From an uncultured Alistipes sp. (GTDB lineage: Bacteria; Bacteroidota; Bacteroidia; Bacteroidales; Rikenellaceae), in contig CALUNG010000020.1 in assembly GCA_944321955.1 (NCBI GenBank), positions 1 through 35,765 of the forward strand: a stretch of DNA of 35,765 nucleotides, given 5' to 3'. Below are positions 17,173 through 35,689 of the stretch, one piece after another. The translations under genes and the position numbers were made by a program. Each line of letters begins with the position of its first letter. Positions within the stretch are counted from its first letter, which is position 1. Below the pieces are notes generated by a model. The model made no database searches. It was not told the DNA's origin and saw nothing but the letters and a program-made list of their open reading frames with translations.

Positions 17173-18741
17173 TCAGGGTTCTATAACCTTGAAGCGGCCT
17201 ACCGTATGAGTCGGCTTGCCGGCCGTGTAGTCCGACAGTGCCACGTCGCCCTCAAGTTTCGATGCGGGCAGAATCAGCACGCCGTCGGCGCAGCGACCTG
17301 CAAGAACGTCGTCGGTGGTCACCTCAACCACATCTTCGTGCAGATAGACATCCATGTTCTCGGGGCGGTGTACTCTCCATACATAGTAGTTGGGTCTGCC
17401 TTCGGCTGCCGATACCTCGGCTGCCTTGCGGCACAAATCGCCGTATCCGATTTCGCAGTTTATGGCCGGCAGGGCGAAGCCTCCCACGAATACCGCTGCG
17501 AAAAGTCCTGCGGCCAGCGTCTCGATTGCGGGGTTGAGCGTATCACGGCGCCGTATGAGCAATACGGCGGCCGCAATACCCGCGATGCAGAGAATTGCGC
17601 CTGCGGCCACGCACCAGCCGTTGAGCAGATATCCCGTTTCGGGTGCCGTCTTCGCCGCGATGAAGAGTCCGGGCAGTACGATGATCCATATGGCCGTTGG
17701 CAGAGCCACCGTAAGCGTAAGCCACCAGCGGCGTCCGATCTTCAGGTACATCAGCATGCCGAGATATATGAGGAACGGGAATGTCGGAGCAAGATATACG
17801 GCTATCTTCGAGCTGAAAGCCGACAGCATCACGAAGGTGGTGACGATGACGGTCAGGAAGAAGCGCTCGAGATCGGTATTGAGCTTGCGGACCACGCAGC
17901 CGCCGACTATGGCGGCAATGACCGTCAGCGACCACGGTGCGATGGAGTACCATACCGATATGAGGTAGTAGTAGAACGGCTCCTTGTGGTGGAAGGCGTC
18001 GACGGCGCGGTCGATGGTCTGGTGGAAGAGCAGGTTGTCGAGATATTCGCGTCCGCCCTCGATGTAGACGCCGCCGAACCATATCACGCATCCGGCGAGG
18101 AGGATGCCCCACGTAAGCCAGCCCCAGTATTGGCCGATGCTCCTGGTCTGCCGTTTGACGGCCAGAAAGACTATCGTGGCTACAAGCGGCACGAGTATGC
18201 CGACAGGACCTTTCGAGAAGAGGGCCAGAAAGACATAGAGGGGGAAGAGTATGCGGTTGCGGCGCGTGTCGCCGCTGCCGTCGTATATGCGGTAGAAGGT
18301 GTAGAGCGCCAGCGTGATGAACATGTTCATGAGCATGTCCATGCGCAGCACTACGGCCAGTCCCAGAAACAGCCCGCTGCTCATGAGCATGAGCGAAGCG
18401 GTGCGGCGTTCGCCCTCGCTGGTTACGGAACGCACCCAGCGGTTCATGGTCCACACTATGACGAGTGCCGGTATTAGCGAGAACAACCCCAGAAACCACA
18501 TCGTGTGCTCGCCGAATATCAGGCGTCCGAGCATGACGATCCAGATGTAGAGAGGCGGTTTGTCGGCATATGGCACACCCTGATTTGTGAAGGTAAAGAC
18601 ATCGCCGTTGGCGATGGCCTCATCGGCGATGCTCAGATATCGCAGTTCGTTCGACGGGGTGAAGTCGCGCAGTATCAGTACGGGCAGCAGGGCCACGACG
18701 AGTGCCGCCGAGAAGAGCACTCCCTTGTTTATCTTATTCAT
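17173..18741 (-). CDS. ArnT-like GT83 membrane glycosyltransferase
   Basis: 522 residues with a dozen or so hydrophobic segments. The first luminal loop has the motif PSNELRYLSIADEAI (about 29-43) and DKPPLYIW (about 60-67), the hallmark of the ArnT/PMT (GT83) fold, where acidic residues in this loop are catalytic. A soluble C-terminal part contains the segment YYVWRVHRPENMDVY. GT83 enzymes move a sugar from a polyprenyl-phosphate carrier to lipid A or another periplasmic acceptor. It is the last gene of a four-gene operon: its ATG overlaps the LAB_N stop by 8 nt. With the epimerase and polyprenyl-phosphate glycosyltransferase upstream, it is likely the final transferase that decorates lipid A. 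The sugar, possibly galacturonic acid, is inferred from the epimerase. Confidence 0.85.
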   Translation of the reverse strand: MNKINKGVLFSAALVVALLPVLILRDFTPSNELRYLSIADEAIANGDVFTFTNQGVPYADKPPLYIWIVMLGRLIFGEHTMWFLGLFSLIPALVIVWTMNRWVRSVTSEGERRTASLMLMSSGLFLGLAVVLRMDMLMNMFITLALYTFYRIYDGSGDTRRNRILFPLYVFLALFSKGPVGILVPLVATIVFLAVKRQTRSIGQYWGWLTWGILLAGCVIWFGGVYIEGGREYLDNLLFHQTIDRAVDAFHHKEPFYYYLISVWYSIAPWSLTVIAAIVGGCVVRKLNTDLERFFLTVIVTTFVMLSAFSSKIAVYLAPTFPFLIYLGMLMYLKIGRRWWLTLTVALPTAIWIIVLPGLFIAAKTAPETGYLLNGWCVAAGAILCIAGIAAAVLLIRRRDTLNPAIETLAAGLFAAVFVGGFALPAINCEIGYGDLCRKAAEVSAAEGRPNYYVWRVHRPENMDVYLHEDVVEVTTDDVLAGRCADGVLILPASKLEGDVALSDYTAGKPTHTVGRFKVIEP

Positions 18742-19375
18742 TCGCGGTGTTGTTTTTCGATTTGCGGCCTATAAGCAGGTTGCGTGCATAGGCTATGAAT
18801 CCGACCGACTGTCCGAGTATCAGAACGGGGTCGAGGCGTATGATGCCGTACGTGACGATCATTGCCGAGCCTGTCAGGCTGAGCAGCCAGAATCCGGCCG
18901 GCAGCGTCGATTCGTGACGGCGTACGGAGTAGATCCACTGGTAGACGAACCTCAACGTGAAGACGATCTGCCCGGCCGAGCCGAAGACGAGAAGCCACAA
19001 CGGCACGTCGTCGTTGCGCAGGAACGTCTCGAAGAAGTGGGCGGCGTTGTGCCAGATGCCTATGAGAGCGGCCACGGGCGTCAGTATCAGTATTATGCGG
19101 AATATCCGCGGCACGCTGCGCCACAATCCCTTGCTGTCGAGGTTCCACAAGTATATGTAGTACGATATGAACTGCCCGAGGATTATCGAGAAGTCGTCGC
19201 GCAGCCACCCGTATATGAACAACAGGTACGAACCCACGATGCTGCATATCCAGTATGCGGCGGGCGATACGACCTTTTTCGCTCTTTCGGAGAGGATCCA
19301 CTGTATGAGGATGCGCGCCGAGAAGAAGGCCTGTGCCAGAAAGCCTATGGCATATATCCACGTATTGCCGGTCAT
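18734..19375 (-). CDS. Membrane protein with two LAB_N domains
   Basis: 213 residues from the ATG at 19375, which overlaps the stop of the preceding gene as ATGA; a longer frame exists upstream but lies inside that gene. Two repeats are visible, each with about three membrane helices and the LAB_N signature. Repeat 1 runs from WIYAIGFLAQAFFSARILIQW to GQFISYYIYLWNL. Repeat 2 runs from GSAGQIVFTLRFVYQWIYS to GQSVGFIAYARNL. This domain is named after the N-terminus of some LpxB proteins, but no LpxB catalytic part is present. Family knowledge places stand-alone LAB_N proteins beside DPM-type transferases and ArnT-like enzymes. A role as carrier-lipid flippase or partner subunit is inference. 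Overlapping genes on both sides indicate translational coupling. Confidence 0.85.
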   Translation of the reverse strand: MTGNTWIYAIGFLAQAFFSARILIQWILSERAKKVVSPAAYWICSIVGSYLLFIYGWLRDDFSIILGQFISYYIYLWNLDSKGLWRSVPRIFRIILILTPVAALIGIWHNAAHFFETFLRNDDVPLWLLVFGSAGQIVFTLRFVYQWIYSVRRHESTLPAGFWLLSLTGSAMIVTYGIIRLDPVLILGQSVGFIAYARNLLIGRKSKNNTANE

Positions 19376-20103
19376 AGATTGCTGTGGGCTACCTTGTAGT
19401 TGATGTAACGTTTCTTCATCCAGCGGTATGCGAAACAGTCCATGAACGGCGAAACCAGACGGTTCCACAAGTGGAACTTCGATTTACCGGCCATGCGCGG
19501 GAAGTGTCGTACTGGCGTTTCGTAATATCTGGCGCCATCCTGCAGCAGTATGAGGGCCGGCAGGAAACGGTGCATGCCCTTGAAGAAGGGGCTGCGTTTT
19601 GCGGCGTTGGTATGCAGCACCCTGAGCGGGCAGCCGGTGTCGGTGAAACCGGCGCCGGTCATCATGCGGCGGAATCCGTTGGCGATCTTCGACTGCACGA
19701 GCTTGAATATCGAGTCGCGGCGGGCGGCGCGTATGCCGGTGCAGAGCGCATATTCGTCCGTGTGCGGCAGCAGCAGCTCGAAATCTTCGGGTGTGGTCTG
19801 CAGGTCTGCGTCTATGTAGCCCACGAGCGGCGATTCGGTGTAGTCGATACCGGCCTTTATGGCGGCGCTGAGACCTGCGTTGCGGGCGAAGCTGATGTAG
19901 TAGAAGTCGTTGTTGCGGCGGCAGCACTCCTCGATGCGCTCGCCGCTGGAGTCGTTCGATCCATCGTTTACGAAGAGCACGCACGTGCGTTTCGACGCAT
20001 GCGGCAGATAGGCATTGAAGGCCCTTTCCAGTTCGGAGATGTTATCCTCTTCGTTGTAGACCGGAACTATGATCGTAAATTCGTATTCGGCAGTCTTGTT
20101 CAT
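19372..20103 (-). CDS. GT2 family polyprenyl-phosphate glycosyltransferase (DPM1-like)
   Basis: 243 residues. The GT-A fold motifs are clear: FTIIVPVYNEEDNI (about 9-22), FVNDGSNDSS (about 44-53), ARNAGLSAAIKAGIDY (about 73-88) and the metal-binding YIDADLQTTP (about 95-104). It ends without extra membrane helices, as in short dolichol-phosphate-mannose-synthase-like enzymes. It should load a sugar from a nucleotide donor onto undecaprenyl phosphate on the cytoplasmic side. It lies 12 nt after the epimerase gene and overlaps the LAB_N gene by 4 nt. In this context it likely uses the epimerase product as donor and supplies the lipid-linked sugar to the GT83 enzyme. Confidence 0.9.
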   Translation of the reverse strand: MNKTAEYEFTIIVPVYNEEDNISELERAFNAYLPHASKRTCVLFVNDGSNDSSGERIEECCRRNNDFYYISFARNAGLSAAIKAGIDYTESPLVGYIDADLQTTPEDFELLLPHTDEYALCTGIRAARRDSIFKLVQSKIANGFRRMMTGAGFTDTGCPLRVLHTNAAKRSPFFKGMHRFLPALILLQDGARYYETPVRHFPRMAGKSKFHLWNRLVSPFMDCFAYRWMKKRYINYKVAHSNL

Positions 20104-20115
20104 TTCCTATATGTT

Positions 20116-21141
20116 TTACGCTCTCTTCCTGAGCGGATTGAGATCCGAAAGATACCACTCGACGAAACGCCCGATGCCTTCGCGCAGCGGGGTTGAGGCC
20201 GTGTAGCCTGTCTTGGCGCGGAGTTTCGACGTGTCGGCGTAGGTACGCGGCACGTCGCCCGCCTGCATCGGCAGCTTCTCGAATACGGCCTTGCGGCCGA
20301 GCGCCTCTTCGAGCGTCGAGATGAAGTCCATGAGGTGTACGGGGTCGCCGTGGCCTATGTTGAATATGTCGGTCGGTATGGCTCCCTGCGGCGCCTTGTC
20401 CAGCAGGCGTACCACACCCTCGACTATGTCGTCGATGTAGGTGAAGTCGCGCAGCATGTCGCCGTTGTTGAAGAGCTTTATGGGACGGCCAGCCGTGATG
20501 GCGTCAGAGAAGAGCATGGGCGACATGTCGGGGCGTCCCCACGGGCCGTATACCGTGAAGAAACGCAGCCCGGTCGATGCCACGCCGAACAATCGTGCAT
20601 AAACTTCGGCCATCAGCTCGTCGCTGCGTTTGGTGGCGGCATAGAGCGATACGGGTTGTTCCACGGCGTCGTCCTCCGAGAACGGAACCTTGGCGTTGTC
20701 GCCGTAGACCGAACTCGACGATGCGTATATGAGGTGCTTTACGGGGTAGTGGCGGCAGCACTCGAGCAGGTTGACGAAGCCGACGACATTGCTGTCGACA
20801 TATGCGAACGGATTCTCGAGCGAATAACGCACGCCGGCCTGCGCCGCAAGATTTATCGCTGCGTCGAAGCGATGCGAAGCGAAGAGCGCAGGCAGCATCT
20901 CGCGCGACTCGAGGTGCATCCTGACGAAATGCAACGACGGGTATTTGGAGCTGACATGCTCCTCGCCTTCGGCGTAATCGCGGCCGTCGAAACCCAGATC
21001 AGCCAGACGTCCGTATTTCAGTGCGACATCGTAGTAGTCGTTCAGGGAGTCTATGCCCGTTACTTCGTGTCCGTCGCGCACGAGGTGCGCCGCAAGATTG
21101 TGGCCGATGAAGCCGGCCATGCCCGTTACCAGAATCTTCAT
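20116..21141 (-). CDS. NAD-dependent epimerase, UDP-glucuronate 4-epimerase-like
   Basis: 341 residues from the ATG at 21141; an upstream in-frame TTG adds only two residues. The Rossmann nucleotide site is VTGMAGFIGHNLA (about 5-17). The substrate region DSLNDYYDVALKYGRL (about 31-46) and LAAQAGVRYSLENPFAY (about 98-114) are typical of UDP-glucuronate 4-epimerases (CapI/GAE type). Catalytic residues are in ASSSSVYG and the YxxxK motif YAATK, with GLRFFTVYGPWGRPDM downstream. The reaction would convert UDP-glucuronate to UDP-galacturonate in the cytoplasm. It is the first gene of the operon, with a perfect TATCTTTG -7 box about 85 nt upstream. Exact sugar specificity among the extended SDR epimerases cannot be settled from sequence alone. 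Confidence 0.88.
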   Translation of the reverse strand: MKILVTGMAGFIGHNLAAHLVRDGHEVTGIDSLNDYYDVALKYGRLADLGFDGRDYAEGEEHVSSKYPSLHFVRMHLESREMLPALFASHRFDAAINLAAQAGVRYSLENPFAYVDSNVVGFVNLLECCRHYPVKHLIYASSSSVYGDNAKVPFSEDDAVEQPVSLYAATKRSDELMAEVYARLFGVASTGLRFFTVYGPWGRPDMSPMLFSDAITAGRPIKLFNNGDMLRDFTYIDDIVEGVVRLLDKAPQGAIPTDIFNIGHGDPVHLMDFISTLEEALGRKAVFEKLPMQAGDVPRTYADTSKLRAKTGYTASTPLREGIGRFVEWYLSDLNPLRKRA

Positions 21142-21225
21142 AAACAAAAAAACATCGAAAGGCGTTGCCGTCTGTCCGTTGTCCGGAAATGATCGGCAGC
21201 GCCACGCTGCGTCAATTCAGTGTGG

Positions 21226-21452: not shown

Positions 21453-22577
21453 CTATTGTTGTACCTCGAGCGTTGCGGCGACCTTCTTCATCAGGTCGCT
21501 GATGGGCAGGTGTTGTGGGCATATCCTTTCGCACTTGCGGCATGTAATGCACTCCGAGGCCTTGCCGTGACCCTCGCTGTATGTCTCGTAGTAGCTTTGC
21601 TGTATCGAGAAGAGATGGTTCACGGACTGCTTGTCGGCATTGTATAGCGCGAAGTAATCGGGTATGGGTATGTGCTTGGGACAACCCGCAACGCAGTAGC
21701 GGCAGGCCGTACACGGTATGGCTATCGACGAGTTGATGATCTCGACGGCACGTGCTATGGCGCGGCGTTCGTCGTCGTCGAGCGGCTTGAAGTCACGCAT
21801 GAACGATGTATTGTCGTCCAGTTGTTCGAGCGTCGACATGCCGCTGAGCACCATCATCACCCCGTCGAGGCTGGCGGCATAGCGTATGGCCCACGACGCC
21901 GGTGACATGTCGGGATGCAGGTCTCGAAAGATACGCTCGGCCTCTTCGGGTATGCGTGCCAGCGATCCTCCCTTGACCGGTTCCATGACGACAACAGGCT
22001 TGCCGTGGCGTCGTGCCACGTCGTAGCAGAGGTGCGACTGTATGCTTTCGTTGTCCCAGTCGAGATAGTTTATCTGCAGCTGTACGAACTCCGTTTCGGG
22101 ATGCTCGGTCAGTATTCGGTCAAGCAGCTCGGCCGTGTCGTGGAACGAGAATCCGATGTGGCGGATACGTCCCTCGGCCTTCATGCGCGAGACGAAACCG
22201 AAACTGTCGAGGCGCTCGACCGTACGGTAGTTTGCCGCGTTGAGGCTGTGGAGCAGATAGTAGTCGAAACAGTCGACGCCGCACTTCTGCATTTGTTCTT
22301 CGAAGATGCGTTCCTGATCTCCGACCTTCTTCAGCATCATCGTCGGCAGTTTCGATGCCAGCGTGAACGATTGGCGGTCGTGGCGCTCGACGAGAGCCTT
22401 GCGCACGAACCGCTCGCTCATGAAGTCGTGGTACATGTATGCGGTGTCGAAATAGGTGAAACCGCGTTCGAGGAACATGTCCACCATGCGTTCGAATGTC
22501 TGCACGTCGACCTTCGAGAAGTCGCCCTCGACGGCCAGCGGCAGTCGCATGCAGCCGAATCCGAGTTTCAGTGCCAT
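21453..22577 (-). CDS. Aldo/keto reductase with C-terminal [4Fe-4S] domain (cytoplasmic)
   Basis: 374 residues with no signal peptide. The (beta/alpha)8 domain keeps the full catalytic tetrad: Asp44 and Tyr49 in FDTAYMY, Lys76 in ASKL and His110 in YLLHSL. A ferredoxin-like C-terminal tail holds two cysteine motifs, CTACRYCVAGCP (from about 287) and CITCRKCERICP (from about 345), each suited to one [4Fe-4S] cluster. These enzymes reduce or oxidise carbonyl or related substrates and can probably exchange electrons with ferredoxin-type partners; the actual substrate is unknown. It is the last gene of a six-gene operon, one nucleotide after the ECF-type gene, and is the cytoplasmic counterpart of the Tat-exported homologue at 25520-26929. 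Confidence 0.9.
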   Translation of the reverse strand: MALKLGFGCMRLPLAVEGDFSKVDVQTFERMVDMFLERGFTYFDTAYMYHDFMSERFVRKALVERHDRQSFTLASKLPTMMLKKVGDQERIFEEQMQKCGVDCFDYYLLHSLNAANYRTVERLDSFGFVSRMKAEGRIRHIGFSFHDTAELLDRILTEHPETEFVQLQINYLDWDNESIQSHLCYDVARRHGKPVVVMEPVKGGSLARIPEEAERIFRDLHPDMSPASWAIRYAASLDGVMMVLSGMSTLEQLDDNTSFMRDFKPLDDDERRAIARAVEIINSSIAIPCTACRYCVAGCPKHIPIPDYFALYNADKQSVNHLFSIQQSYYETYSEGHGKASECITCRKCERICPQHLPISDLMKKVAATLEVQQ

Positions 22578-22578
22578 A

Positions 22579-23091
22579 TTATTTGCGTATGATGAAGCGT
22601 ATTACGGCCCAGCCGCCGAAAATTTGCAGGAGCATGCCCGGCAGGCCGATGCGGAAGTCCTGCAATGCTGAGTGCAGATTGCCGACGATTGCCCACTCGC
22701 CGAGCGTGCCGACGATCTGGTATGCGGCTACGACTGCTGCCAGCAGCAGAATCGATACGCGCTTGAAGTGTGCGGCCGTGAAGCCTGCGGCCAGGGCAAG
22801 CAGCGTCGACTTGAGCATGATGGCGGGCAGTGCTGCGGCTGCGGGCATGCCGAAGATCAGCGAGTTGATCAGCGGCGAGGCGATGGCCGTGAGCAGACCG
22901 ACACGCCAGCCGTACTTGTATGCGCCGACAAGCGTGAAGAAGTAGATCGGCAACCACATGACGCCTCCCTGCGGTACGAGGTGGAAGAGTTGCGGCAATG
23001 CGATGTTGCCCAGAACGAAGAGAGCGGCCGTGCCGTAAGTCTTTGCCTGTCCGTACTCGAACGAATAGAGTTTTACAGTCGTTGTTTCCAT
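22579..23091 (-). CDS. ECF-type transporter S component-like membrane protein
   Basis: 170 residues, nearly all hydrophobic, with about five or six membrane helices separated by short loops. The segments GGVMWLPIYFFTLVGAYKYGWRVG and ASPLINSLIFGMPA, together with the size, match the substrate-binding S components of energy-coupling-factor transporters. S components bind vitamins or similar small molecules and need a shared ECF module (EcfA/A'/T) encoded elsewhere. No ATPase or T component is in this window. It follows the TonB receptor gene by 22 nt and precedes the reductase by 1 nt, which suggests that receptor and S component take up the same compound across the two membranes. The ligand is unknown. 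Confidence 0.7.
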   Translation of the reverse strand: METTTVKLYSFEYGQAKTYGTAALFVLGNIALPQLFHLVPQGGVMWLPIYFFTLVGAYKYGWRVGLLTAIASPLINSLIFGMPAAAALPAIMLKSTLLALAAGFTAAHFKRVSILLLAAVVAAYQIVGTLGEWAIVGNLHSALQDFRIGLPGMLLQIFGGWAVIRFIIRK

Positions 23092-23113
23092 AACGTTTTG
23101 TTTTTGTTTATGG

Positions 23114-25057
23114 TCAAATGTTTATGTTTACGCCGGCCATGACGGTGGCTTTAGGCATCGGGAAGCCGGCATTGATTTCATATTTCTGGGCGAGCAGGTT
23201 TTCGCCGCGCACCCATACTCCGAGCCATTTGGTGGCGCGGAACGAGCATTGCGCATTCCACAGCACGAAACTCTCCTTGCGGTATTCGCCCGTGCCGGCC
23301 ACGACGACCGAGGTGTAGAGCCCGGCGACATACTGTATGCCGGTCGAGACGTTCCAACGGCCTTTGGCGAACGAGCCTCCGGCGTAGAGCTTGTGTTCGG
23401 GCGAGGCAAGTACGGGCTGTTCCATGTGCAGGAAACTGTAGTTGGCGTCGACGCGCCACATGTCGTTTATCGTGTATCCGGCCTGCACCTCGACACCGGC
23501 ATTCTCGATGCGGCCGGTGTTCATGTTCTTCTGTCGGCCGTCGACCGGTATGCGCATTATCAGGTTGTCGCCATTGATGTAGAAGACGTTTACTCCGTAC
23601 GACAGCCGGTTGTCGAGCAACCGCTGGGTGAACGATATCTCGTAACTCCACAGCCGTTCGGGCTTCAGATCGGGATTCTGCGGCGGGAACATGTACATCT
23701 CGCGGATGGTGGGGTAGCGGAATCCCTTGCTTGCCATGAGCTTTATATGGGAGTTGGCCGGCAGGTGGAACGATATGCCTGCCTGCGGTACCCATTCGGT
23801 GCCGATATCCCAGTGATGGTCGGCGCGTATGCCTGCATCGATGGTCATCCAGCCGCCTATCTCCTGTCGGAAGTCGACATAGCCTGCCAGTTCATCCTGC
23901 GACTTGTCGGCTATGTCGCTGCGCTCTCCCTGCCGTTCCCCATTGACATAGAGGTTCCACGCCTCGCCGCCGAAGTGGTAGTAGTCCATGCCGGCAGTCA
24001 GACGGTTACCTTTCCACAACTGCACGCTCTGGTAAAGCGATACGCCCGTCATCACGTCGCGGGAGTTGAAGCGGTAGTCGAGCGGCTGCTCGCCGGCGGA
24101 ATATCCGTCGTTGATGCGGTGACGTCCCCAGTTGTAGAAGAAACTCAGGGCTCCCGATGTCTTGCCGTAGTCGTTGTGCAGCGCTACGGAGGTCATGCCG
24201 CGCGTAATGCGCTGGTCGTTGTCCGTAATGGGATCGTCGACCGCGCCCGGATTCGAAGCGTTGAAGTGCGTCACGTTCACGTCGGCCATGATGTTCCACT
24301 GCTGCGAAAATTCGTATCCGAGTTTGGCATATCCGCCGTATTGTTCGAATGCCGAGTTGACCCGGTGCCCGTCGGTGCGGTTGTACGATCCGCTCACCAC
24401 GCTCGTGAAGCCCTTTTTGCGGATGCGGTTCGTGATCTCGCTCTGCAGCGAGTTGTATGAGCCGTATCCGACGTTGGCATTGGTACTGATGCCGTCCTGT
24501 TTCATCCTGCGTGTGACGATGTTGATCACGCCGCCCATGGCGTTCGATCCGTAGAGCACCGACGCCGGACCGCGTACTACCTCGACGCGCTCGGCGAGGA
24601 ACGACTGGTATGCGTCGGCTATCGGATGACCCATCAGACCCATGTATTGCGGATGGCCGTCTATTAGCACCAGCATGCCCGTTGTCGGTACGCCGGCCTG
24701 CGCCGGACCACCGACACCGCGCAGCGACATCTGTCCCGCGGCTCCGTCCGATACGCCGTATCCCATTATGCCGCGTCCCGTGGTGAAGAGGCCCGGTACC
24801 TGTTCGGTGATGACCGACAGCAGCGATGGCGAATTGTGCTGCTCGATCTGTGTACGGTCCACGACCGAGATACTCATCGGCAGGTGGCGTATGTCCGTCT
24901 CGTTGCGGGTGCCGGTTACCACGACCTCGTTTATGTCGATGGTTACCGGTTCGGTTTCATTCTCCTTGTGCGGTTGTCCGTTATCAGTAGAGGCCTGTCC
25001 CAATGCCGTAACGAACGATAGCACCGTGACGGCCGTCAGTAAGATTCTCTTGTCCAT
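23114..25057 (-). CDS. TonB-dependent outer-membrane receptor (BtuB/siderophore size class)
   Basis: 647 residues from the ATG at 25057, which overlaps the previous stop as TAATG. This start gives the signal peptide MDKRILLTAVTVLSFVTALG; a longer open frame upstream lies inside another gene. The TonB box EVVVTGTR (about 47-54) is followed by the plug with LPMSISVVDRTQIEQ, VLIDGHPQYMG, ERVEVVRGPASVLYGSNAMGGVINIVT, then a beta-barrel ending VMAGVNINI. It lacks the N-terminal extension and ~1000-residue size of SusC, so it is more likely to carry a vitamin, metal complex or other small molecule. Its place in the operon with an ECF S component and redox enzymes suggests that it imports the substrate or a cofactor of this system. 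Confidence 0.9.
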   Translation of the reverse strand: MDKRILLTAVTVLSFVTALGQASTDNGQPHKENETEPVTIDINEVVVTGTRNETDIRHLPMSISVVDRTQIEQHNSPSLLSVITEQVPGLFTTGRGIMGYGVSDGAAGQMSLRGVGGPAQAGVPTTGMLVLIDGHPQYMGLMGHPIADAYQSFLAERVEVVRGPASVLYGSNAMGGVINIVTRRMKQDGISTNANVGYGSYNSLQSEITNRIRKKGFTSVVSGSYNRTDGHRVNSAFEQYGGYAKLGYEFSQQWNIMADVNVTHFNASNPGAVDDPITDNDQRITRGMTSVALHNDYGKTSGALSFFYNWGRHRINDGYSAGEQPLDYRFNSRDVMTGVSLYQSVQLWKGNRLTAGMDYYHFGGEAWNLYVNGERQGERSDIADKSQDELAGYVDFRQEIGGWMTIDAGIRADHHWDIGTEWVPQAGISFHLPANSHIKLMASKGFRYPTIREMYMFPPQNPDLKPERLWSYEISFTQRLLDNRLSYGVNVFYINGDNLIMRIPVDGRQKNMNTGRIENAGVEVQAGYTINDMWRVDANYSFLHMEQPVLASPEHKLYAGGSFAKGRWNVSTGIQYVAGLYTSVVVAGTGEYRKESFVLWNAQCSFRATKWLGVWVRGENLLAQKYEINAGFPMPKATVMAGVNINI

Positions 25058-25506
25058 TATTGGGGCAACTTCTCTATGAATCCGCGTATCAACGGCAGGC
25101 ACTCCTCGGCCGTGGTGCACTCCCTGCACAACTTCTCGATGGGACACCAGTCGGTCTTGGTGCGGTTTATGATGTGCGGTACCGCAAGCGTGTAGTCCAC
25201 CTTGACACCGTTGCTCTCGAGCAGCTTCAGCGCCGACTGGCTGATGACGTCGGCAAAGAGCTCGCTGACACCGCCCAGTACCATCAGTGCGGCCGCCCCC
25301 TTGCCCACGACCTTGTCGGCAACGAAGGCCCCGTCGAGAAAACTGCGGTCGTTCCCGAGCAGGCGATACAGATCCATTACGCCCCGGTCGCGGAATATGC
25401 CTATGCGGTCGCCGTTGCGGATTATGCACGAACACTTTTCGGTAAACAGCATCTCGATGAGCAGCCGCCGCGACTCTCCGTTCATGAATTTAGCTCCGTG
25501 TGTCAT
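25057..25506 (-). CDS. DUF1893 family protein
   Basis: 149 residues. Visible features are KCSCIIRNGDRIGIFRDRGVMDLYRLL (about 24-50), GAFVADKVVGKGAAALMVLGGV (about 59-80) and a cysteine-rich tail with CPIEKLCRECTTAEEC (about 121-136). This matches my recollection of the DUF1893 family, said to share the cytidine-deaminase-like fold. The usual zinc-binding deaminase motif is not evident, so I do not call it a deaminase. The start at 25506 is supported by an unusually good AAAGGAG Shine-Dalgarno sequence (plus-strand complement near 25514-25520). It lies between the exported reductase and the TonB receptor in the operon. Its function is unknown; the C-terminal cysteines could bind metal. Confidence 0.75.
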   Translation of the reverse strand: MTHGAKFMNGESRRLLIEMLFTEKCSCIIRNGDRIGIFRDRGVMDLYRLLGNDRSFLDGAFVADKVVGKGAAALMVLGGVSELFADVISQSALKLLESNGVKVDYTLAVPHIINRTKTDWCPIEKLCRECTTAEECLPLIRGFIEKLPQ

Positions 25507-25519
25507 AATCAGTCTCCTT

Positions 25520-26929
25520 TCAGAACTCCTTTCCCTGTTTCAGCACCTCGACGAACGAGTCTATGCTCCTCATGCGTCCCGGAATGTCGATACCCTGCGG
25601 GCAGTGCGGTACGCACTGCTTGCAGCCGATGCAGTGGCTGGCCTGTCGCAGCCGCGGAACCGAACGGTCGTATCCCACGAGAAACGCCCGACGTGCCTTG
25701 CGGTAGTTCTCGTCCTGCGACGACGACGGGATGTTGCCCTCGTTGACGCAACGGTTGTAGTGTGCGAATATCGACGGGATGTCGAGTCCGTAGGGACACG
25801 GCATGCAGTACTGGCAGCTGGTGCACGGTATCGTCGGATACTGCAGCATCTTCTGCGCCGTATCCTCGAGCAGCGCAAGCTCCTCGTCGGTGCATGGATC
25901 GAGCGGCGAATATGTCCGCAGATTGTCCTGCAGGTGCTCCATGTATGTCATGCCGCTCAGTACCGTCAGCACGTCGGGGAACGATCCCGCATAGCGGAAT
26001 GCCCACGATGCGATGCTCTCCTCGGGCCGGCGTTGTTTGAGACGTTCCGCCAGATAGTTGTTGAGGCTTGCGAGACGACCGCCCAGCAGCGGCTCCATGA
26101 TTACGGCCGGAATGTTGCGTTTCACAAGCTCTCCGTAGAGATACTCGGCATTGGTATTGCGGGTATTTATCTCCTTGGCATGTTTCCAGTCGACGTAGTT
26201 GAGCTGTATCTGCACGAAGTCCCATTTGATCTCGTTGTGGCGCGAAAGCAGATAGTCGAAAACCTCGATGTCGCCGTGATACGAAAAGCCGAGGTTGCGT
26301 ATGCGTCCGGCTTCGCGTTCGGCCACCAGGAAGTCGAGCATGCCGTTGTCGAGATAGCGGGCGTGAAGTGCCTCCATGCCGCCCATGCCGATGCCGTGAA
26401 GCAGCATGTAGTCGATGTAGTCGGTCTGAAGTTCACTGAACGAGTTGTGATACATGCGCATCGAGGCTTCGCGGCTCCAGGTCTCGGGCGAGAAGTTCGA
26501 CAGTTTGGTGGCTATGTAGTAGCTGTCGCGCGGGTGGCGCTTGAGCGCAATGCCGGTTGCCCGTTCGGATTGTCCCTTGCAGTAGGCCGGCGACGTATCG
26601 AAATAGTTTATGCCGTGGGCCAGTGCATAGTCGACCAGTGCATTGATCGTCTCCTGGTCGAGGTCGTCGCTGCGGTCGCCGCCGGCCTTGCCGAGCGTTG
26701 GCCAGCGCATGCATCCGTATCCCAGCAGCGAAACCTTGTCGCCGCTCTTCGGATTGGTGCGGTATGTCATCCTGTCGGTTGGAATGTCGGCCGAAGCATT
26801 GCGGTCTCCGGTTACGGGATTGTTGCGGTTGCCGCATCCGGTCGCCAGGGCTACGGTCGATGCCGCGGCTCCGAGGCCCAGACGTTTCAGAAACTCCCGA
26901 CGGCTTATATCGTTGTTCTTCTTCTCCAT
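25520..26929 (-). CDS. Tat-exported lipoprotein aldo/keto reductase with [4Fe-4S] motifs
   Basis: 469 residues. The N-terminus carries a twin-arginine signal, SRREFLKRLG (9-18), followed by a hydrophobic stretch and a lipobox ending at Cys32 (ALATGC). The enzyme should therefore be exported folded, with its cofactors, and anchored as a lipoprotein. The catalytic tetrad of aldo/keto reductases is intact: Asp111 and Tyr116 in FDTSPAY, Lys142 in ATKL and His178 in LLHG. The C-terminal part has CTSCQYCMPCP (from about 352) and CIGCKQCVPHCP (from about 436), each able to hold a [4Fe-4S] cluster. NAD(P)H is not available outside the cytoplasm, so electrons most likely come through the Fe-S clusters from the upstream polyferredoxin, 13 nt away. 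The substrate is unknown. Confidence 0.88.
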   Translation of the reverse strand: MEKKNNDISRREFLKRLGLGAAASTVALATGCGNRNNPVTGDRNASADIPTDRMTYRTNPKSGDKVSLLGYGCMRWPTLGKAGGDRSDDLDQETINALVDYALAHGINYFDTSPAYCKGQSERATGIALKRHPRDSYYIATKLSNFSPETWSREASMRMYHNSFSELQTDYIDYMLLHGIGMGGMEALHARYLDNGMLDFLVAEREAGRIRNLGFSYHGDIEVFDYLLSRHNEIKWDFVQIQLNYVDWKHAKEINTRNTNAEYLYGELVKRNIPAVIMEPLLGGRLASLNNYLAERLKQRRPEESIASWAFRYAGSFPDVLTVLSGMTYMEHLQDNLRTYSPLDPCTDEELALLEDTAQKMLQYPTIPCTSCQYCMPCPYGLDIPSIFAHYNRCVNEGNIPSSSQDENYRKARRAFLVGYDRSVPRLRQASHCIGCKQCVPHCPQGIDIPGRMRSIDSFVEVLKQGKEF

Positions 26930-26942
26930 GACATTTGCTTTT

Positions 26943-28478
26943 TCAGACGGTTCTGTGGTTTTCGTGTCCTTCTACGTATATCGCGCTGAACGGGCGGGCC
27001 GGACAGAGGTTCTCGCAGGCTCCGCAACCGATGCACCTCTCGGTGTCGATGGCCGGTATCCTGGGCGACGATTCGTCGTCGGGGTTCGATGCGATCATTT
27101 GTATGGCTCCAGTCGGGCAGTGGCGCGAGCAGTTGCCGCACTCGACTCCGTCGGTCAGCGGTACGCAGTTCTCCCTGATCCATACGGCATGTCCGATCTG
27201 TATCGACGACTTTTCGGCTGCCGTTACCGGCAGTATGGCTCCGGCCGGGCAGACCTCCGAACATTTGGTGCATTCGGGACGGCAGTAGCCGCGTTCATAC
27301 GACATCTCGGGCTGCATGAGTCTCATCAGTTTACCCGATGGACGCAGTACGCCGTTGGGACATACCGATACGCAGAGCTGGCAGCCGGTGCAGTGCGTCG
27401 TCAGATTGCGCAGGCTGAGGGCTCCGGCCGGAACTATCGGAGTGGCACGTTCGGGGATCTTCTTGTCGACGATTACGGCCAGACCGCCGTCTACCTTCTT
27501 CTCCTGAGCCCGCAGGGCCGTGGTCGTGGCGAGCATGGCCGTGAGCGACAGGAGTTTGCGGCGCGATATGTTCGCTCCGCCTTCAGGTGCGCCGTCGGCC
27601 GGTGTCTGGCTGTTGTTGTTCTTCGTTGCGGTAGCCGGTGCGGCGTGTCGGCGTCGCCATGTGTACGATATGGCCGACGTGTGGCACTTCTCGAGGCAAT
27701 CCATGCAGGCGACGCAACGGCTGTAGTCGATGGCGTGGTTTTTGGAGTCTATGCACGAAGCCTTGCAGTTGCGGGCGCAGAGGTTGCAGTTCACGCACTT
27801 AGAGGTGTCGATGACGGGACGGAAGAGCGAGAAACGCGAGAAAAATCCCAGCACCGTCCCGACCGGACATACGGTATTGCACCATGTACGTCCGTTGCGC
27901 CATGCGAGCACGCCCACGACTACAAGCGTTACGACCGCTACGGCAAATGTGGCGGCGCTCCGGATCCATACGTCGGTGGTGTAGAATGCATAGCTGTCGA
28001 GCCGTTCGGCAATATAGGCCAGAGCGTTGTTGCCGAGAGCATATACCGGAGCCAGCAGGTTGGATGCAATACGTCCGAAAGCGCTGTACGGGGCAATGAG
28101 CGTGGCGATGCGGGCTACGATTGTTCCCGATCCGAGAGCCAGAGCAGCAATAAACAGCACCAGCATCGTGTATCGCAGCCACGAGAGGGCCGGCGAATAT
28201 CTGAAACGGTTCTTGCGGTGCTTGCCTCCTGCCCACGAGAAGATGTCCTGCATCACTCCCAACGGGCATATTACCGAGCAGTAGACGCGGCCGAAGAGCA
28301 GTGTCAGTACAATTAGTCCCGCCACTACACCGATGTTCAATGCCAGCAATGCCGGCAGTAGCTGTATTTTGGCCAGCCATCCGAACCATGCGTGCAGCGT
28401 TCCCGTAAAGTCGAGAAACAGGAGCATGACGAGCACGAAGCAGATGGTGGCGAGGGTGATTCTCAGTTTCCTTAGCAT
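26943..28478 (-). CDS. Membrane polyferredoxin, NapH-NapG-like fusion
   Basis: 511 residues from the ATG at 28478; the frame extends upstream but the extension is not protein-like. The NapH-like half has about four or five membrane helices, two cytoplasmic C-x3-CP motifs (Cys67-71, Cys200-204) and two [4Fe-4S] motifs (Cys228/231/234/238 and Cys255/258/261/265). A linker leads to a twin-arginine-like motif ISRRKLLSL (304-312) and a hydrophobic stretch ending ALRAQ. The C-terminal half has four more cysteine clusters (363-373, 399-410, 438-454, 482-492), as in NapG. In nitrate reduction, NapH and NapG carry quinol electrons to the periplasm. No nitrate reductase is here, so the likely acceptor is the exported aldo/keto reductase encoded next. 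First gene of the operon. Confidence 0.85.
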   Translation of the reverse strand: MLRKLRITLATICFVLVMLLFLDFTGTLHAWFGWLAKIQLLPALLALNIGVVAGLIVLTLLFGRVYCSVICPLGVMQDIFSWAGGKHRKNRFRYSPALSWLRYTMLVLFIAALALGSGTIVARIATLIAPYSAFGRIASNLLAPVYALGNNALAYIAERLDSYAFYTTDVWIRSAATFAVAVVTLVVVGVLAWRNGRTWCNTVCPVGTVLGFFSRFSLFRPVIDTSKCVNCNLCARNCKASCIDSKNHAIDYSRCVACMDCLEKCHTSAISYTWRRRHAAPATATKNNNSQTPADGAPEGGANISRRKLLSLTAMLATTTALRAQEKKVDGGLAVIVDKKIPERATPIVPAGALSLRNLTTHCTGCQLCVSVCPNGVLRPSGKLMRLMQPEMSYERGYCRPECTKCSEVCPAGAILPVTAAEKSSIQIGHAVWIRENCVPLTDGVECGNCSRHCPTGAIQMIASNPDDESSPRIPAIDTERCIGCGACENLCPARPFSAIYVEGHENHRTV

Positions 28479-28507
28479 GATATTCCGTATTGCAAAATTC
28501 GACAACG

Positions 28508-28515
28508 CAAATATA
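28508..28515 (-). promoter_or_regulatory. -7 box of the six-gene redox operon
   Basis: TATATTTG on the minus strand is a perfect match to TAnnTTTG, with start expected near 28501 and a ~23-nt leader. No TTTG -33 box is present at 19-21 nt, which fits a promoter that needs an activator such as the divergent AraC protein. Confidence 0.65.
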
Positions 28516-28520
28516 ACGAG

Positions 28521-28555
28521 TTTTCCGGGTTTTCCATTATCCGGACTTTCCGGGT
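28521..28555. promoter_or_regulatory. Direct repeats, candidate AraC operator
   Basis: TTTCCGGGT occurs at 28522-28530 and again at 28547-28555, 25 bp apart, with a partial TTTTCC copy at 28530-28535 and ATCCGGA between. The repeats lie just upstream of the minus-strand -7 box, where an AraC-type activator normally binds. Direct repeats are the usual form of AraC family sites. Confidence 0.5.
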
Positions 28556-28674
28556 AGCATGTACCGTTCTGTTTCCGATGCAAAATTACCAACTCGCTGC
28601 ATGCGTGTCTTTATACGTATGACGGTTTCTCTTACCATAATTACAGATGGTCGTGCCGGCTTGCAAAAAATGGC

Positions 28675-28682
28675 TAAATTTG
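28675..28682 (+). promoter_or_regulatory. -7 box of the AraC regulator gene
   Basis: TAAATTTG is a perfect match to TAnnTTTG, 26 nt before the ATG at 28709, giving a ~20-nt leader. No clear -33 box is visible. Confidence 0.6.
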
Positions 28683-28708
28683 TGGTGGAATCAATAAAAC
28701 GCATAACT

Positions 28709-29605
28709 ATGGATGAGATTTTGAACCTCGATACCGTAAGCAAGTACAACGATCTGTTCGGAGTCGAGACCCTGCACCCGCTTGTCAGTGTCATCGACTT
28801 TTCGAAGTGCGAGGCCGTAGACCCGCGACGCATGCGCGTTGGCTTCTATACCGTTTTCCTCAAGGAGGTGAAGTGCGGTGAGATGCTCTACGGACGCGGC
28901 ACGTACGACTATCAGGATGGTACCATGGTATTTCTCGCTCCGGGGCAATGCTACGGCATAAACGCCACGGGCAAGGTCAAAGGCAAGGGTTGGGCTCTGG
29001 TGTTCCATCCCGATCTGTTGCGCGGTACGCAACTCGGACGCAATATACGTCAATATACATTCTTCTCGTACGAGGTCAACGAGGCGCTGCATCTGTCGGA
29101 GCAGGAGCGCCGGACGATACTCGATTGCATGCACAACATAGACCACGAGCTGCATCACGCCATCGACAAGCACAGCCGTACGCTTATCGTTAACAATATA
29201 GAGATGTTACTGAACTATTGCGTGCGTTTCTACGATCGTCAGTTCATCACCCGCAGCGAGGTTGTCAACCGGGACATACTCTCACGGTTCGAGCGTCTGC
29301 TCGACGACTATATGGATTCGGACAAGCCGCAGACCATCGGCCTGCCCACGGTGCAGTACTGCGCCGGCGAACTGCACCTTTCGCCCAACTATTTCGGAGA
29401 CCTCATAAAGCGCGAGACGGGCCGCACGGCACAGGAACAGATACGCCTGCGGCTGATCGATGCCGCCAAGGAGCGGGTGCTCGACCGCAGCCGCTCGATA
29501 AGCGAGATAGCCTACGATCTGGGATTCAAGTATCCGGCGCACTTTACGCGCCTGTTCAAGAATACGGTGGGGTGTACTCCTGTCGAGTACCGTAATGTCA
29601 ACTGA
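28709..29605 (+). CDS. AraC family transcriptional regulator
   Basis: 298 residues from the ATG at 28709, chosen because a perfect -7 box lies just upstream; a longer in-frame start at 28559 would place that promoter inside the gene. The N-terminal ~160 residues are a cupin-like sensing domain (GTYDYQDGTMVFLAPGQCYGI). The C-terminal domain has two helix-turn-helix motifs: GLPTVQYCAGELHLSPNYFGDLIKRETG (about 212-239) and SISEIAYDLGFKYPAHFTRLFKNTVGCTPVEYR, the standard AraC signature. It is transcribed away from the redox operon across a 230-bp gap that carries repeats suited to AraC binding. It is the probable activator of that operon, responding to an unknown small molecule. Confidence 0.93.
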   Translation: MDEILNLDTVSKYNDLFGVETLHPLVSVIDFSKCEAVDPRRMRVGFYTVFLKEVKCGEMLYGRGTYDYQDGTMVFLAPGQCYGINATGKVKGKGWALVFHPDLLRGTQLGRNIRQYTFFSYEVNEALHLSEQERRTILDCMHNIDHELHHAIDKHSRTLIVNNIEMLLNYCVRFYDRQFITRSEVVNRDILSRFERLLDDYMDSDKPQTIGLPTVQYCAGELHLSPNYFGDLIKRETGRTAQEQIRLRLIDAAKERVLDRSRSISEIAYDLGFKYPAHFTRLFKNTVGCTPVEYRNVN

Positions 29606-29695: not shown

Positions 29696-32488
29696 TTAGA
29701 AATCGTATCCTGCGATCTTGGAGGCATAGTCACTCCACCCGCTTGCCGCCTTATAGGCATCTACAGATGCTTGCGGGACATAGATGGCTGCAACTGGAGA
29801 ATTTGAAAACACACTCGCACCAAATGTCGGAGGAGTTGTCGGTTTGCTGTATACATTTGTTAGGTTGCGGCAACTCCAGAATGCTCTCTCTCCAATCGTT
29901 GTAACCCCGTCAGGAATAGTAATACTTGTCAGGCTGCTGCAACGATAGAATGCGTAACTTCCAATCGTTGTAACACTTTCGGGAATTGTAATGTTTGTCA
30001 GGCTGCTGCAATCAGAGAATACGGAATTTCCAATTGTTGTAACCCCGTCAGGGATTGTAATGCTGGTCAGGCTGCTGCAAGAAGAGAATGCTCTCTCTCC
30101 AATCGTTGTAACCCCGTCAGGGATTGTAATGCTGGTCAGCCTCTCGCAATCAGAGAATGCTCCATATCCAATTGTTGTAACTCCGTCAGGAATGGTATAT
30201 TCCGTCAAGCCATATACCTCATACGGCGCGAAAGCTATCAACTTACCATTCATAATCAGACATTTATGATCTGCAGAGGCATATTTACCCGAAAAAGTTC
30301 CAAGCCAGCCACAATCAGAAAATGCACCATCCTCTATCGTTGTAACATTTTCAGGAATCGTAATACTTTTCAGGCCGCAAGCGGAAAAAGCCCCTCTCTT
30401 TATCGTAGTAAGGCTTTCTGGAAATGTTATGTTGGTTAGAACCGCGCAATTATAAAATGCACTACTACCTATTGTTCTAAGGCTATTGGGAAGCGTGATA
30501 GTGTTTAACTCCCAACACATCCAAAATGCACTACTTCCAATATCTGTAACGCCATCTAGTAGCGTAACGTTCACCAGTTTATAGCAAGAAGAGAATGCGT
30601 TATCTCCAATAGCTGTAACACTTCCGGGAATAGTGATACTGGACAGACTGCTGCAACTACTGAAGGTCCACTTGGGAATATTTGTAATACCATCAGGCAA
30701 AGAAATACTTATCAAGTTCGCACAAGACCTGAAAGCCTCCTCTCCAATAGTTGTAACCCCATCAGGAATAATAATACTTTCCAGATTCTCTTTATGTTCA
30801 AATACCCCTGACGGGATCTTTGTTATGGCTCCACTAAATGTAATCTTACCTTGCCCACCTGCATAAATATTTGACACGAAATCAGCACCGAAACTTGGCA
30901 GGTCTTTTGACAGACTGACAACTTCCCCATCCGATGTAGTGTAGTATATGACATTGACCGGATTATCGTTGTTCAGCAGCATTGGGATATACTCCGACGT
31001 CACGTTATTGTTACCGTCCGAAATGAAAAGAGCTGCGCTGGCCGACTGGGTCTCCACGAAGAACTCCTCGCCGAGATTCTCGCCGCTGGCCTTCACCGTG
31101 ATGACGCCATTGGCCGCATCGGCCGTAAAACCGAGTACGGGCATCTCGATGAATTCGACGGAACTGCGCGTCAGCGTATGTACGGCCTTCACGCTTACGG
31201 CCTCCTCCCAGACCTTCTCCAGGTCCGCAACAACATCCTTCGGTGAGATCAGGAAGTCCATCTCGGCAATGCCGTTGTCTTGCCCCTCTATGCGTCGCAC
31301 CTCGATCTTGCCGTCATCGTACTGCGGTACGTACGATACGGACTGTATGCGTTTGAGCAGTGCTGTGATCTCTTCGGCCATGCCGTCGACCTTCTCCTCC
31401 AACTCCGAGAGACGCTCTTCAATCGCGTCGATACGAGCGGTCAGTGTCTGCACCTCGGAGTCGATACGGTTGTTTACGCTCTGGATCTGCTGGGCAATCT
31501 TGGTGTCGATAACACCGTTGTTTGTCTCGATAGCCGATGCAATGGCCTGCTGATATGCTTCTGTGAGCTCGCTTTTGGCCGAAGCGACAGATTCGTTTAC
31601 GGCTGCAATCTCGCTCGTCAGTTTCTCGTCCGCGGCGGCATCACCCGCAGCGATCGCCTCCTGCAACTGTTTCACTTTTGCATTCACGGAGGCAATGTCG
31701 TAGTAATTGGCCAGCTCCTCGTGCACCCAGCTCTTCATCGAGGTTACACAATCTTCGATAGCCGAAGATATGGCCGAAGTATAGGCCGCGGTAATCTCCT
31801 CACGTGCCGTGCCGATCGCTGCCGTATAGGCATCCGTTATCTCCGTTACCTTCGCCTGGATGTCGCTCTCCAGTCCTGCTACGGCGGCTGCGATGTCGGT
31901 TTTGATCTTCTCGTTCAGGCGCGTCTCCATATCGGCGAGGTCCTGATTGATCGTCTCGATTGAGGTGCGGATTGCAGCGATGTCGTCAACCAGGCCGTTG
32001 TACTGCTCCAACGTGGTGAAGGTGGTTGTCACCCAGTCCCGCTGTGCATCGAGATCACCATCCAACGAAGCGATCTTCTGCTCCAGCGACTTGTCGGCAT
32101 CCTGCAGCGACACGATAAGCCCGTTTATGGAGTCGATCTCTCCCTGCACCTCCTGCTTGTAGCTGTTCAGTTGTGCCAGAACATCCGAAATATCCGATTG
32201 AACATCCTGCTCCAAGGCATCGATCTTGTTGTCCAAATCGGCAACGGTTTGCTCGAGGGTACTTACCTTGTCTTGCAGGGTTGAGATATAGTCCTTGATC
32301 TCCGAATCGGTCTGTTGAAGCTGTGGCAACGTATTTTGAATCGACTTGATCTGTTGGTCGACGGTCGGAAGCACCGTATTCTCCAACTTATCGACCCGGT
32401 CGGTCAGTTTGTCGATCCGGTCGTTAATCTTGCTGCACCCCAGGAGCAACAAGCCACAAAGCAACAGGGATGATAGTTTCCGTATCAT
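29696..32488 (-). CDS. Coiled-coil (DUF4988-type) lipoprotein with BspA-type leucine-rich repeats, copy 1
   Basis: 930 residues. The signal peptide ends in lipobox LLGC (Cys18). Residues about 20-400 are long heptad-rich coiled coil, opening SKINDRIDKLTDRVDKLEN as in DUF4988-type proteins. An Ig-like segment follows (about 400-500, SVSYVPQYDDGKIEVRRIEG to TSEYIPM). From about 530 there are roughly a dozen BspA-type LRRs of 23 residues with the pattern LTSITIPDGVTTIGERAF. One non-LRR insert (YASADHKCLIMNGKL) and a C-terminal cap ending YASKIAGYDF complete it. BspA-like proteins are surface adhesins, so a stalked surface-binding role is likely. The gene starts 34 nt after its near-twin and is probably cotranscribed. 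The LRR half is richer in A and T than the stalk. Confidence 0.88.
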   Translation of the reverse strand: MIRKLSSLLLCGLLLLGCSKINDRIDKLTDRVDKLENTVLPTVDQQIKSIQNTLPQLQQTDSEIKDYISTLQDKVSTLEQTVADLDNKIDALEQDVQSDISDVLAQLNSYKQEVQGEIDSINGLIVSLQDADKSLEQKIASLDGDLDAQRDWVTTTFTTLEQYNGLVDDIAAIRTSIETINQDLADMETRLNEKIKTDIAAAVAGLESDIQAKVTEITDAYTAAIGTAREEITAAYTSAISSAIEDCVTSMKSWVHEELANYYDIASVNAKVKQLQEAIAAGDAAADEKLTSEIAAVNESVASAKSELTEAYQQAIASAIETNNGVIDTKIAQQIQSVNNRIDSEVQTLTARIDAIEERLSELEEKVDGMAEEITALLKRIQSVSYVPQYDDGKIEVRRIEGQDNGIAEMDFLISPKDVVADLEKVWEEAVSVKAVHTLTRSSVEFIEMPVLGFTADAANGVITVKASGENLGEEFFVETQSASAALFISDGNNNVTSEYIPMLLNNDNPVNVIYYTTSDGEVVSLSKDLPSFGADFVSNIYAGGQGKITFSGAITKIPSGVFEHKENLESIIIPDGVTTIGEEAFRSCANLISISLPDGITNIPKWTFSSCSSLSSITIPGSVTAIGDNAFSSCYKLVNVTLLDGVTDIGSSAFWMCWELNTITLPNSLRTIGSSAFYNCAVLTNITFPESLTTIKRGAFSACGLKSITIPENVTTIEDGAFSDCGWLGTFSGKYASADHKCLIMNGKLIAFAPYEVYGLTEYTIPDGVTTIGYGAFSDCERLTSITIPDGVTTIGERAFSSCSSLTSITIPDGVTTIGNSVFSDCSSLTNITIPESVTTIGSYAFYRCSSLTSITIPDGVTTIGERAFWSCRNLTNVYSKPTTPPTFGASVFSNSPVAAIYVPQASVDAYKAASGWSDYASKIAGYDF

Positions 32489-35381: not shown

Positions 35382-35689
35382 AATACGATTATTTAAGTAA
35401 AACAATTGGCGTACGTTTTACCGTATCAACTCCTGCTGCGGCGGGTTATGTGCAAAAAGAAAGTGTGGAACTGCAATATCTGATATTCGAGAAGTCGAAT
35501 AAAGACGAAAATGAAAAAAAGAGCTAAACAAGTGCAAATATAACCTCTAATATTCAATACTTTATGTGGTATCAGATTCGGGAATGACTTTTTAATTTGT
35601 CTTAATCCGTTGCAAGTTTCTTCGGGATATACGGGAACATTTACGGGAATTTGTTATACCTTTGCCGCATAACAGAAAAAGCAACGCCG
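35382..35689. promoter_or_regulatory. Divergent promoter region between LRR operon and recombinase gene
   Basis: On the minus strand TATATTTG (35542-35535) is a perfect -7 box for the LRR operon. On the plus strand TACCTTTG (35657-35664) is a perfect -7 box for the gene at 35690, with a ~20-nt leader. Neither has a good -33 box. I saw no inverted repeats flanking either promoter, so there is no direct sign of an invertible promoter in this stretch. Confidence 0.6.

Follow-up and report, generated by a model that had tools for sequence, protein, structure and literature searches.

A conserved pairing of a NapH-NapG-type polyferredoxin with a predicted Tat-exported iron-sulfur aldo/keto reductase in Bacteroidales

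Polyferredoxins in which NapH and NapG are joined in a single chain have been described before, a close example being PFD of the delta proteobacterium MLMS-1, a polytopic NapH-NapG fusion that, in the available passages of PMC5449189, is assembled by both the general secretory (Sec) and the twin-arginine translocation (Tat) routes. Its Tat dependence was shown there with reporter fusions, the twin-arginine motif standing ahead of the final hydrophobic segment and four clusters lying outside; the same passages identify NapGH as the quinol dehydrogenase of nitrate respiration. Here we analyse a protein of this general kind, NapHG, encoded in a stretch of 35,765 nucleotides (the window) from an uncultured Alistipes sp. 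(contig CALUNG010000020.1 of assembly GCA_944321955.1), together with TatAKR, the product of the next gene, a predicted lipoprotein of the aldo/keto reductase (AKR) superfamily. An earlier note on this DNA had described six tightly spaced genes and a divergent AraC-family gene, an arrangement that we confirm, all the open reading frames (ORFs) being open at the coordinates in Table 1. Comparison with related loci indicates a real conserved pairing between a known type of polyferredoxin and a Tat-exported Fe-S AKR; displayed directly in the sequences are the constancy of this pairing, Tat-type signals on both proteins, cluster motifs and an intact AKR tetrad. We found no description of the pairing, or of the operon, in the open-access literature searched, including available passages of PMC10434189, PMC11770544, PMC5449189 and PMC13404670, and to that extent the note's statement that no described pathway has this set of genes holds.

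The pairing was followed from both of its members. The best 80 of 575 confirmed TatAKR relatives in named genomes were fetched with a TatAKR profile (loci and genomes carry L and G numbers, respectively, in this analysis), giving a set that measures the neighbours of TatAKR and not its frequency. Neighbours were tallied within 7 kb and on the same strand, using hidden Markov models trained in part on proteins from the loci being scored; the counts are lower bounds, since contigs often end near the pair. Some of the loci read outside this set repeat members of it (for example L040 = L092, L044 = L101, L056 = L128 and L035 = L065). By this measure NapHG accompanies TatAKR in 78 of the 80 loci. 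Among 295 Bacteroidales genomes drawn evenly, TatAKR lies directly downstream of 45 of 50 NapHG homologues (near-full-length, at least 52% identity, two partial pieces of G327 left out) and is itself present, at E<=1e-80, in 49 genomes. A sample of the class placed it in 6 of 8 genomes of Bacteroidales and in 0 of 239 outside the order, and its hosts include Bacteroides xylanisolvens, B. faecis, B. finegoldii, Parabacteroides massiliensis, Odoribacter, Phocaeicola and Tannerella forsythia. Loci L076, L113, L135 and L136 derive from records titled Paenibacillus, Kapaibacterium, Myxococcales and Opitutales, respectively; because L076 is placed among Bacteroidales in a tree of NapHG proteins, such contigs may have been mislabelled or misbinned.

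The other genes of the operon are distributed differently. Same-strand neighbours in the 80 loci comprise DUF1893 in 29, the energy-coupling factor (ECF) S-component-like protein (ECF-S) in 20, TatC in 16, the TonB receptor in 7, a flavodoxin-like protein in 5 and an exported DUF362 protein in 4. Counted on either strand, an AraC-family gene is near in 5 loci and a flavodoxin-like gene in 7, the either-strand figure being given for AraC since it is divergent in the window. The order NapHG-TatAKR-DUF1893-TonB-ECFS recurs in L062, L081 and L089, and in L092 with DUF362 inserted; the exact six-gene set of the window was found in none of the 80 loci and in none of the further loci read. Judged from gene neighbourhoods, the conserved unit is thus the pair NapHG plus TatAKR and not the six genes, with DUF1893, ECF-S, the TonB receptor and (elsewhere) exported DUF362 as optional parts and the second Fe-S reductase, AKR2, as a rare one. 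The conservation across Bacteroidales that the note had proposed to look for therefore applies to the pair and was not seen for the full set; its treatment of the six genes as a unit is not supported, as most pairs show no uptake genes nearby and AKR2 relatives (E<=1e-75) occur in 4 of 232 genomes, one of them that of the window. Its recognition of a fusion resembling the NapH-NapG quinol dehydrogenase beside an exported reductase is borne out by the constancy of that neighbour.

NapHG contains several Fer4 domains recognised by Pfam, including Fer4_5, and scores far below the NapH and NapG family cut-offs. Its NapH-like part carries two CxxCxxCxxxC motifs and two CxxxCP motifs, and its NapG-like part four 4Fe-4S motifs that, by cysteine positions, all follow the last, weakly hydrophobic segment, which is itself preceded by a twin-arginine motif; a hydropathy scan alone was used to estimate the transmembrane segments and does not fix their number. 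The pattern RRx-phi-phi is present at this internal signal in 92 of 97 NapHG copies (some loci being duplicated), the five exceptions comprising one truncated copy and four with one Arg moved or changed to Lys. On account of this signal the C-terminal, NapG half is predicted to be periplasmic. The motif, viewed beside the described MLMS-1 fusion, also makes NapHG best filed, on sequence grounds, with the known dual Sec-Tat NapH-NapG polyferredoxins, PFD sharing in its available description the NapH-like membrane part, the twin-arginine motif ahead of the final hydrophobic segment and the four 4Fe-4S sites after it. The two differ in that PFD is predicted, in the same passages, to have three cytoplasmic clusters and five transmembrane segments (PMC5449189), as against the two full motifs and two CxxxCP motifs here, and in that those passages name no partner, whereas NapHG regularly adjoins a Tat-exported AKR or DUF362 protein. 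The NapGH proteins of periplasmic nitrate reductase share the NapH and NapG domains, but here these are fused in H-G order and the neighbour is an AKR rather than NapA. Nitrate use was considered and set aside, no molybdoenzyme being found by Pfam among the operon genes, to which the look for NapA was confined.

In TatAKR, an alignment of 35 rows (34 of the 80 loci and the window) shows R10, R11, F13 and the lipobox residue C32 to be invariant in every row, as are both 4Fe-4S motifs of the tail. A tatC gene lies beside the operon genes on the same strand in 16 of the 80 loci, preceded in 14 of these by a TatA-like ORF recognised by eye; Pfam confirmed TatC in three samples (two of them outside the 80 loci) and TatA in one, and the window's genome has TatC away from the operon. 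Because the Tat motif and lipobox Cys are invariant, tatC adjoins the pair in some loci and NapHG has its own internal Tat signal, export of TatAKR by the Tat route, as the note had suggested, is well supported as a prediction.

The barrel of the TatAKR AlphaFold model has a mean predicted local distance difference test (pLDDT) score of 79, and its nearest folds are L-galactose dehydrogenases and AKR14A1. With these it shares the barrel fold, the tetrad and a Gly and Asn of the cofactor site, but identity is 20-24% and TatAKR alone has the Tat lipoprotein signal, the 2x[4Fe-4S] tail and a Glu in the cofactor loop. Residues D111, Y116, K142 and H178, which correspond to the catalytic tetrad of the family, are invariant in all 35 rows. 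In a profile alignment to L-galactose dehydrogenase, the Gly and Asn near the end of the barrel, presumably the adenosine side of the cofactor site, are kept, and an invariant E279 replaces the Ser of the SPL loop, a residue that in L-galactose dehydrogenase presumably touches the cofactor pyrophosphate. The same M-E-P motif is seen by eye in AKR2. On these residues the evidence for and against use of NAD(P)H by TatAKR appears balanced. Flavodoxin was considered as a constant flavin partner and rejected on the counts given above.

NapHG also occurs with another class of enzyme. Among 14 more distant NapHG loci (36-45% identity), 12 adjoin a Tat-exported DUF362 protein and 2 a Tat AKR; the former (L158-L169) were hand-picked from lower-identity NapHG matches and the latter (L156 and L157) were chosen for having a TatAKR hit. 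The DUF362 domain with a twin-arginine start rests on Pfam in two loci, on a scripted motif in 11 and on inspection by eye in L160. In the NapHG tree, rows linked to AKR and rows linked to DUF362 separate with a single change, at a branch supported at 99/96 in a first tree (28 core rows drawn randomly, the window row absent through a length filter) and at 99/94 in a second (which includes the window's row beside 20 of 68 named ones); with an arbitrary root, the tree does not give the order in which the partners were taken up. This split by partner, with the alternation of DUF362 and AKR, suggests that NapHG may be a general feeder for Tat-exported enzymes, and it looks like one electron feeder adapted to two of them. 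DUF362 belongs, in the available passages of PMC11770544, to Pfam clan CL0471 with the lactate racemase LarA (DUF2088). That likeness goes no further than membership of the clan, and nothing in these loci points to a nickel-pincer cofactor. Elsewhere in the window's genome, L172 (1078-2424) encodes a distant DUF362 protein whose N-terminus is lipoprotein-like.

DUF1893 is present in 30 of the 295 genomes, and 27 of these belong to the 49 that encode TatAKR (Fisher p 1e-21, with no correction for kinship); 18 of its 31 places lie within 400 nt after TatAKR. In L095, L121 and L136 (3 of the 80 loci), and also, by Pfam, in L170, it is fused in one frame to the C-terminus of TatAKR, which argues that DUF1893 is able to function in the periplasm. 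In L150 its own start resembles that of a lipoprotein. Its solved relatives are TM1506 and another named only as DUF1893 domain-containing. In L128 (= L056) and L149 (8556-10844), DUF1893 and the TonB receptor share one open frame, with no stop between them. AKR2, by eye, has no signal peptide, and Pfam finds Aldo_ket_red and Fer4 tails in it as in TatAKR. Its relatives adjoin DUF1893 and ECF-S in G532 (L148), bear a Tat motif in G329 and, in G503, correspond to a Tat AKR adjoining NapHG (L156). A third Fe-S reductase (AKR3) occurs in a few loci.

These features can be assembled into a two-protein redox route from menaquinol through NapHG to exported TatAKR, with reduction in the periplasm, a reading whose chances, taken as a whole, we put at about even. 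Menaquinol would be oxidised on the NapH side of NapHG and its electrons would pass through Fe-S clusters to the periplasmic NapG half, which would hand them to the 2x[4Fe-4S] tail of membrane-anchored TatAKR; the barrel would then reduce a small carbonyl or similar compound. DUF1893 may work directly with TatAKR, and the TonB receptor, ECF-S and, elsewhere, exported DUF362 would form an optional capture or salvage module. NapHG would be the general feeder, with the Tat-exported DUF362 proteins as its neighbours in another part of the tree. We infer the quinol as donor, the direction of flow, the arrival of electrons at the barrel and the class of substrate. Several observations weigh against this scheme. 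No flavin domain that could turn single electrons into hydride is found by Pfam in TatAKR or NapHG; the kept tetrad and cofactor-site Gly and Asn fit ordinary hydride chemistry, and several of the nearest folds were solved with NAD(P). The Fe-S tail is present also in AKR2, which has no signal, and is therefore a family trait rather than one acquired for export. Electrons could also run the other way. Two of the 80 loci have no recognised NapHG near TatAKR, in 5 of the 50 NapHG cases the partners are apart, swapped or on separate contigs, and long branches make some placements in the NapHG tree unsure. The note was right on its themes of export and electrons, but its independence of NAD(P)H and its respiration run ahead of the evidence. 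A fuller proposal, offered only tentatively as possible but doubtful, is that TatAKR works independently of nicotinamide: menaquinol would supply its barrel by way of a 4Fe-4S chain, and the enzyme would serve as a terminal reductase beyond the cytoplasm. It would then represent one branch of a broader arrangement, in which the NapHG fusion supplies electrons to more than one kind of Tat-exported enzyme (AKR or DUF362). Were the quinol-linked route true, common gut Bacteroidales would have an unrecorded periplasmic reductase, possibly a new means of electron disposal or of converting carbonyl compounds from the diet or the host without bringing them into the cytoplasm. A superfamily regarded as one of NAD(P)H enzymes would then extend to respiratory electrons, and the DUF1893, DUF362 and orphan ECF-S families would gain partners and a possible role.

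The uptake genes raise another interpretation. ECF-S of the window has no Pfam match at E<=1e-3 (PF12822 scoring 17.3 bits against a cut-off of 30.7), and all 20 aligned copies touch PF12822 at E<=1, the best at 9e-8. The first 13 matches to its AlphaFold model (pLDDT 88) are solved S components, with weak Foldseek E values (best 0.009) and TM-scores up to 0.72; the fold resembles RibU, FolT and, presumably, HmpT. The model thus has the fold of S components such as TmRibU, ThiT and FolT, but the window's genome differs in lacking a CbiQ/EcfT match, in an assembly 92% complete. CbiQ is above the family cut-off in 24 of the 295 Bacteroidales genomes (28 at E<=1e-3) and in 4 of the 49 with TatAKR, and ECF-S therefore probably works for the most part without the usual ECF module, unless its role is a different one. 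Attempts to name a substrate were rejected for ECF-S, whose profile finds no solved S component by sequence, and for the receptor, whose best matches among solved structures point in several directions (receptors for colicin I, B12, heme and enterobactin); a riboswitch clue was likewise sought, with no Rfam match at the gathering threshold in the window and five loci. One may suppose that the receptor and ECF-S import a vitamin-like heterocycle, with TatAKR, DUF1893 and, elsewhere, DUF362 reducing or trimming it beforehand in the periplasm. The clustering of uptake genes with the pair favours this micronutrient salvage, as do the likeness to RibU and FolT and the presence of ECF-S at 3 of the 12 NapHG-DUF362 loci (L165, L167 and L168), with a phosphoribosyltransferase-like gene alongside (Pfam in L165 and L168); a relative of the TonB receptor occurs at L168. 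Since most core pairs show no uptake genes nearby (these counts being lower bounds), the six sources scanned gave no Rfam match and the S protein stands mostly alone with regard to CbiQ, we consider salvage rather unlikely as the account of the pair, and the most fitting view of the receptor and ECF-S is that of an optional module for capture or salvage.

Export need not part an AKR from its nucleotide. Glucose-fructose oxidoreductase is a precedent for export with a tightly bound nucleotide, and the invariant tetrad and the NAD(P) complexes among the nearest folds, L-galactose dehydrogenases and AKR14A1, leave room for the same in TatAKR, which would be exported preloaded with NAD(P)(H) and perform hydride chemistry, NapHG and the Fe-S tail recharging the nucleotide or serving otherwise. 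The Tat route carries folded proteins already loaded with their cofactors. The invariant Glu279 in place of the cofactor-loop Ser should, however, disfavour a nucleotide, and a constant flavin partner is missing, flavodoxin-like genes being near in so few of the 80 loci; this explanation we judge unlikely.

The same proteins could run in reverse, TatAKR oxidising a periplasmic alcohol or sugar and passing electrons through its tail and NapHG to menaquinone. The sequence fixes no direction, and the best solved relatives are L-galactose dehydrogenases; NapGH is known, however, as a quinol dehydrogenase in nitrate respiration (available passages of PMC5449189), and electron disposal is probably the commoner need in an anaerobe, which makes the reverse route a distinctly poor prospect. 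A further alternative makes TatAKR a conventional NAD(P)H reductase of the cytoplasm whose N-terminus resembles a Tat signal by chance and whose neighbours are unrelated, as the normally cytoplasmic location of AKRs and the signal-less AKR2 might suggest; this is highly improbable given the invariant twin arginines and lipobox, tatA-tatC beside the pair and the conserved pairing.

Table 1. Coordinates in the window of the operon, its signals and the divergent regulator
Feature	Coordinates	Strand	Basis
NapHG: NapH-like membrane part fused to NapG-like part	26943-28478	-	ORF and Pfam
TatAKR: predicted Tat-exported lipoprotein aldo/keto reductase, 2x[4Fe-4S] tail	25520-26929	-	ORF and Pfam
DUF1893 (TM1506) protein	25057-25506	-	Pfam, 168 bits
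TonB-dependent receptor, weakly CirA/BtuB-like; optional part	23114-25057	-	Pfam
ECF-S: ECF S-component-like protein; optional part	22579-23091	-	Fold and weak PF12822
AKR2: Fe-S aldo/keto reductase; rare addition	21453-22577	-	Pfam Aldo_ket_red and Fer4
AraC-family regulator, divergent	about 28709-29605	+	Pfam AraC helix-turn-helix
Internal twin-arginine signal of NapHG, between NapH and NapG halves	27501-27566	-	SRRK and weakly hydrophobic stretch
Tat signal and lipobox of TatAKR (R10, R11, F13, C32)	26834-26905	-	Alignment, invariant
Dicluster 4Fe-4S tail of TatAKR (C369-C378, C433-C443 motifs)	25601-25825	-	Pfam and alignment, invariant
-7 box candidate TATATTTG, fits TAnnTTTG, upstream of NapHG	28508-28515	-	Pattern match
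Terminator-like hairpin, 14 pairs, after AKR2	21427-21395	-	Sequence

The intergenic gaps from NapHG to AKR2 are, in order, 13, 13, -1, 22 and 1 nt, the value of -1 reflecting a TAATG overlap between DUF1893 and the TonB receptor. Of 78 scorable loci, 48 have the pattern TAnnTTTG, which we take to be the Bacteroidetes -7 box, no more than 160 nt upstream of NapHG, compared with 6.7 expected from mononucleotide shuffles. Beyond the terminator-like hairpin, the minus strand at 17173-21147 encodes an NAD-dependent epimerase, a LAB_N protein and a PMT_2-type transferase (Pfam), with a glycosyltransferase-like ORF, recognised by eye, at 19372-20103; this cluster is likely concerned with modification of lipid A or of a glycan. 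On the other side, the minus strand carries a tandem pair of genes (29696-32488 and 32523-35405) for closely related proteins, which start like lipoproteins, are coiled coils in their N-terminal halves and contain BspA-type leucine-rich repeats.

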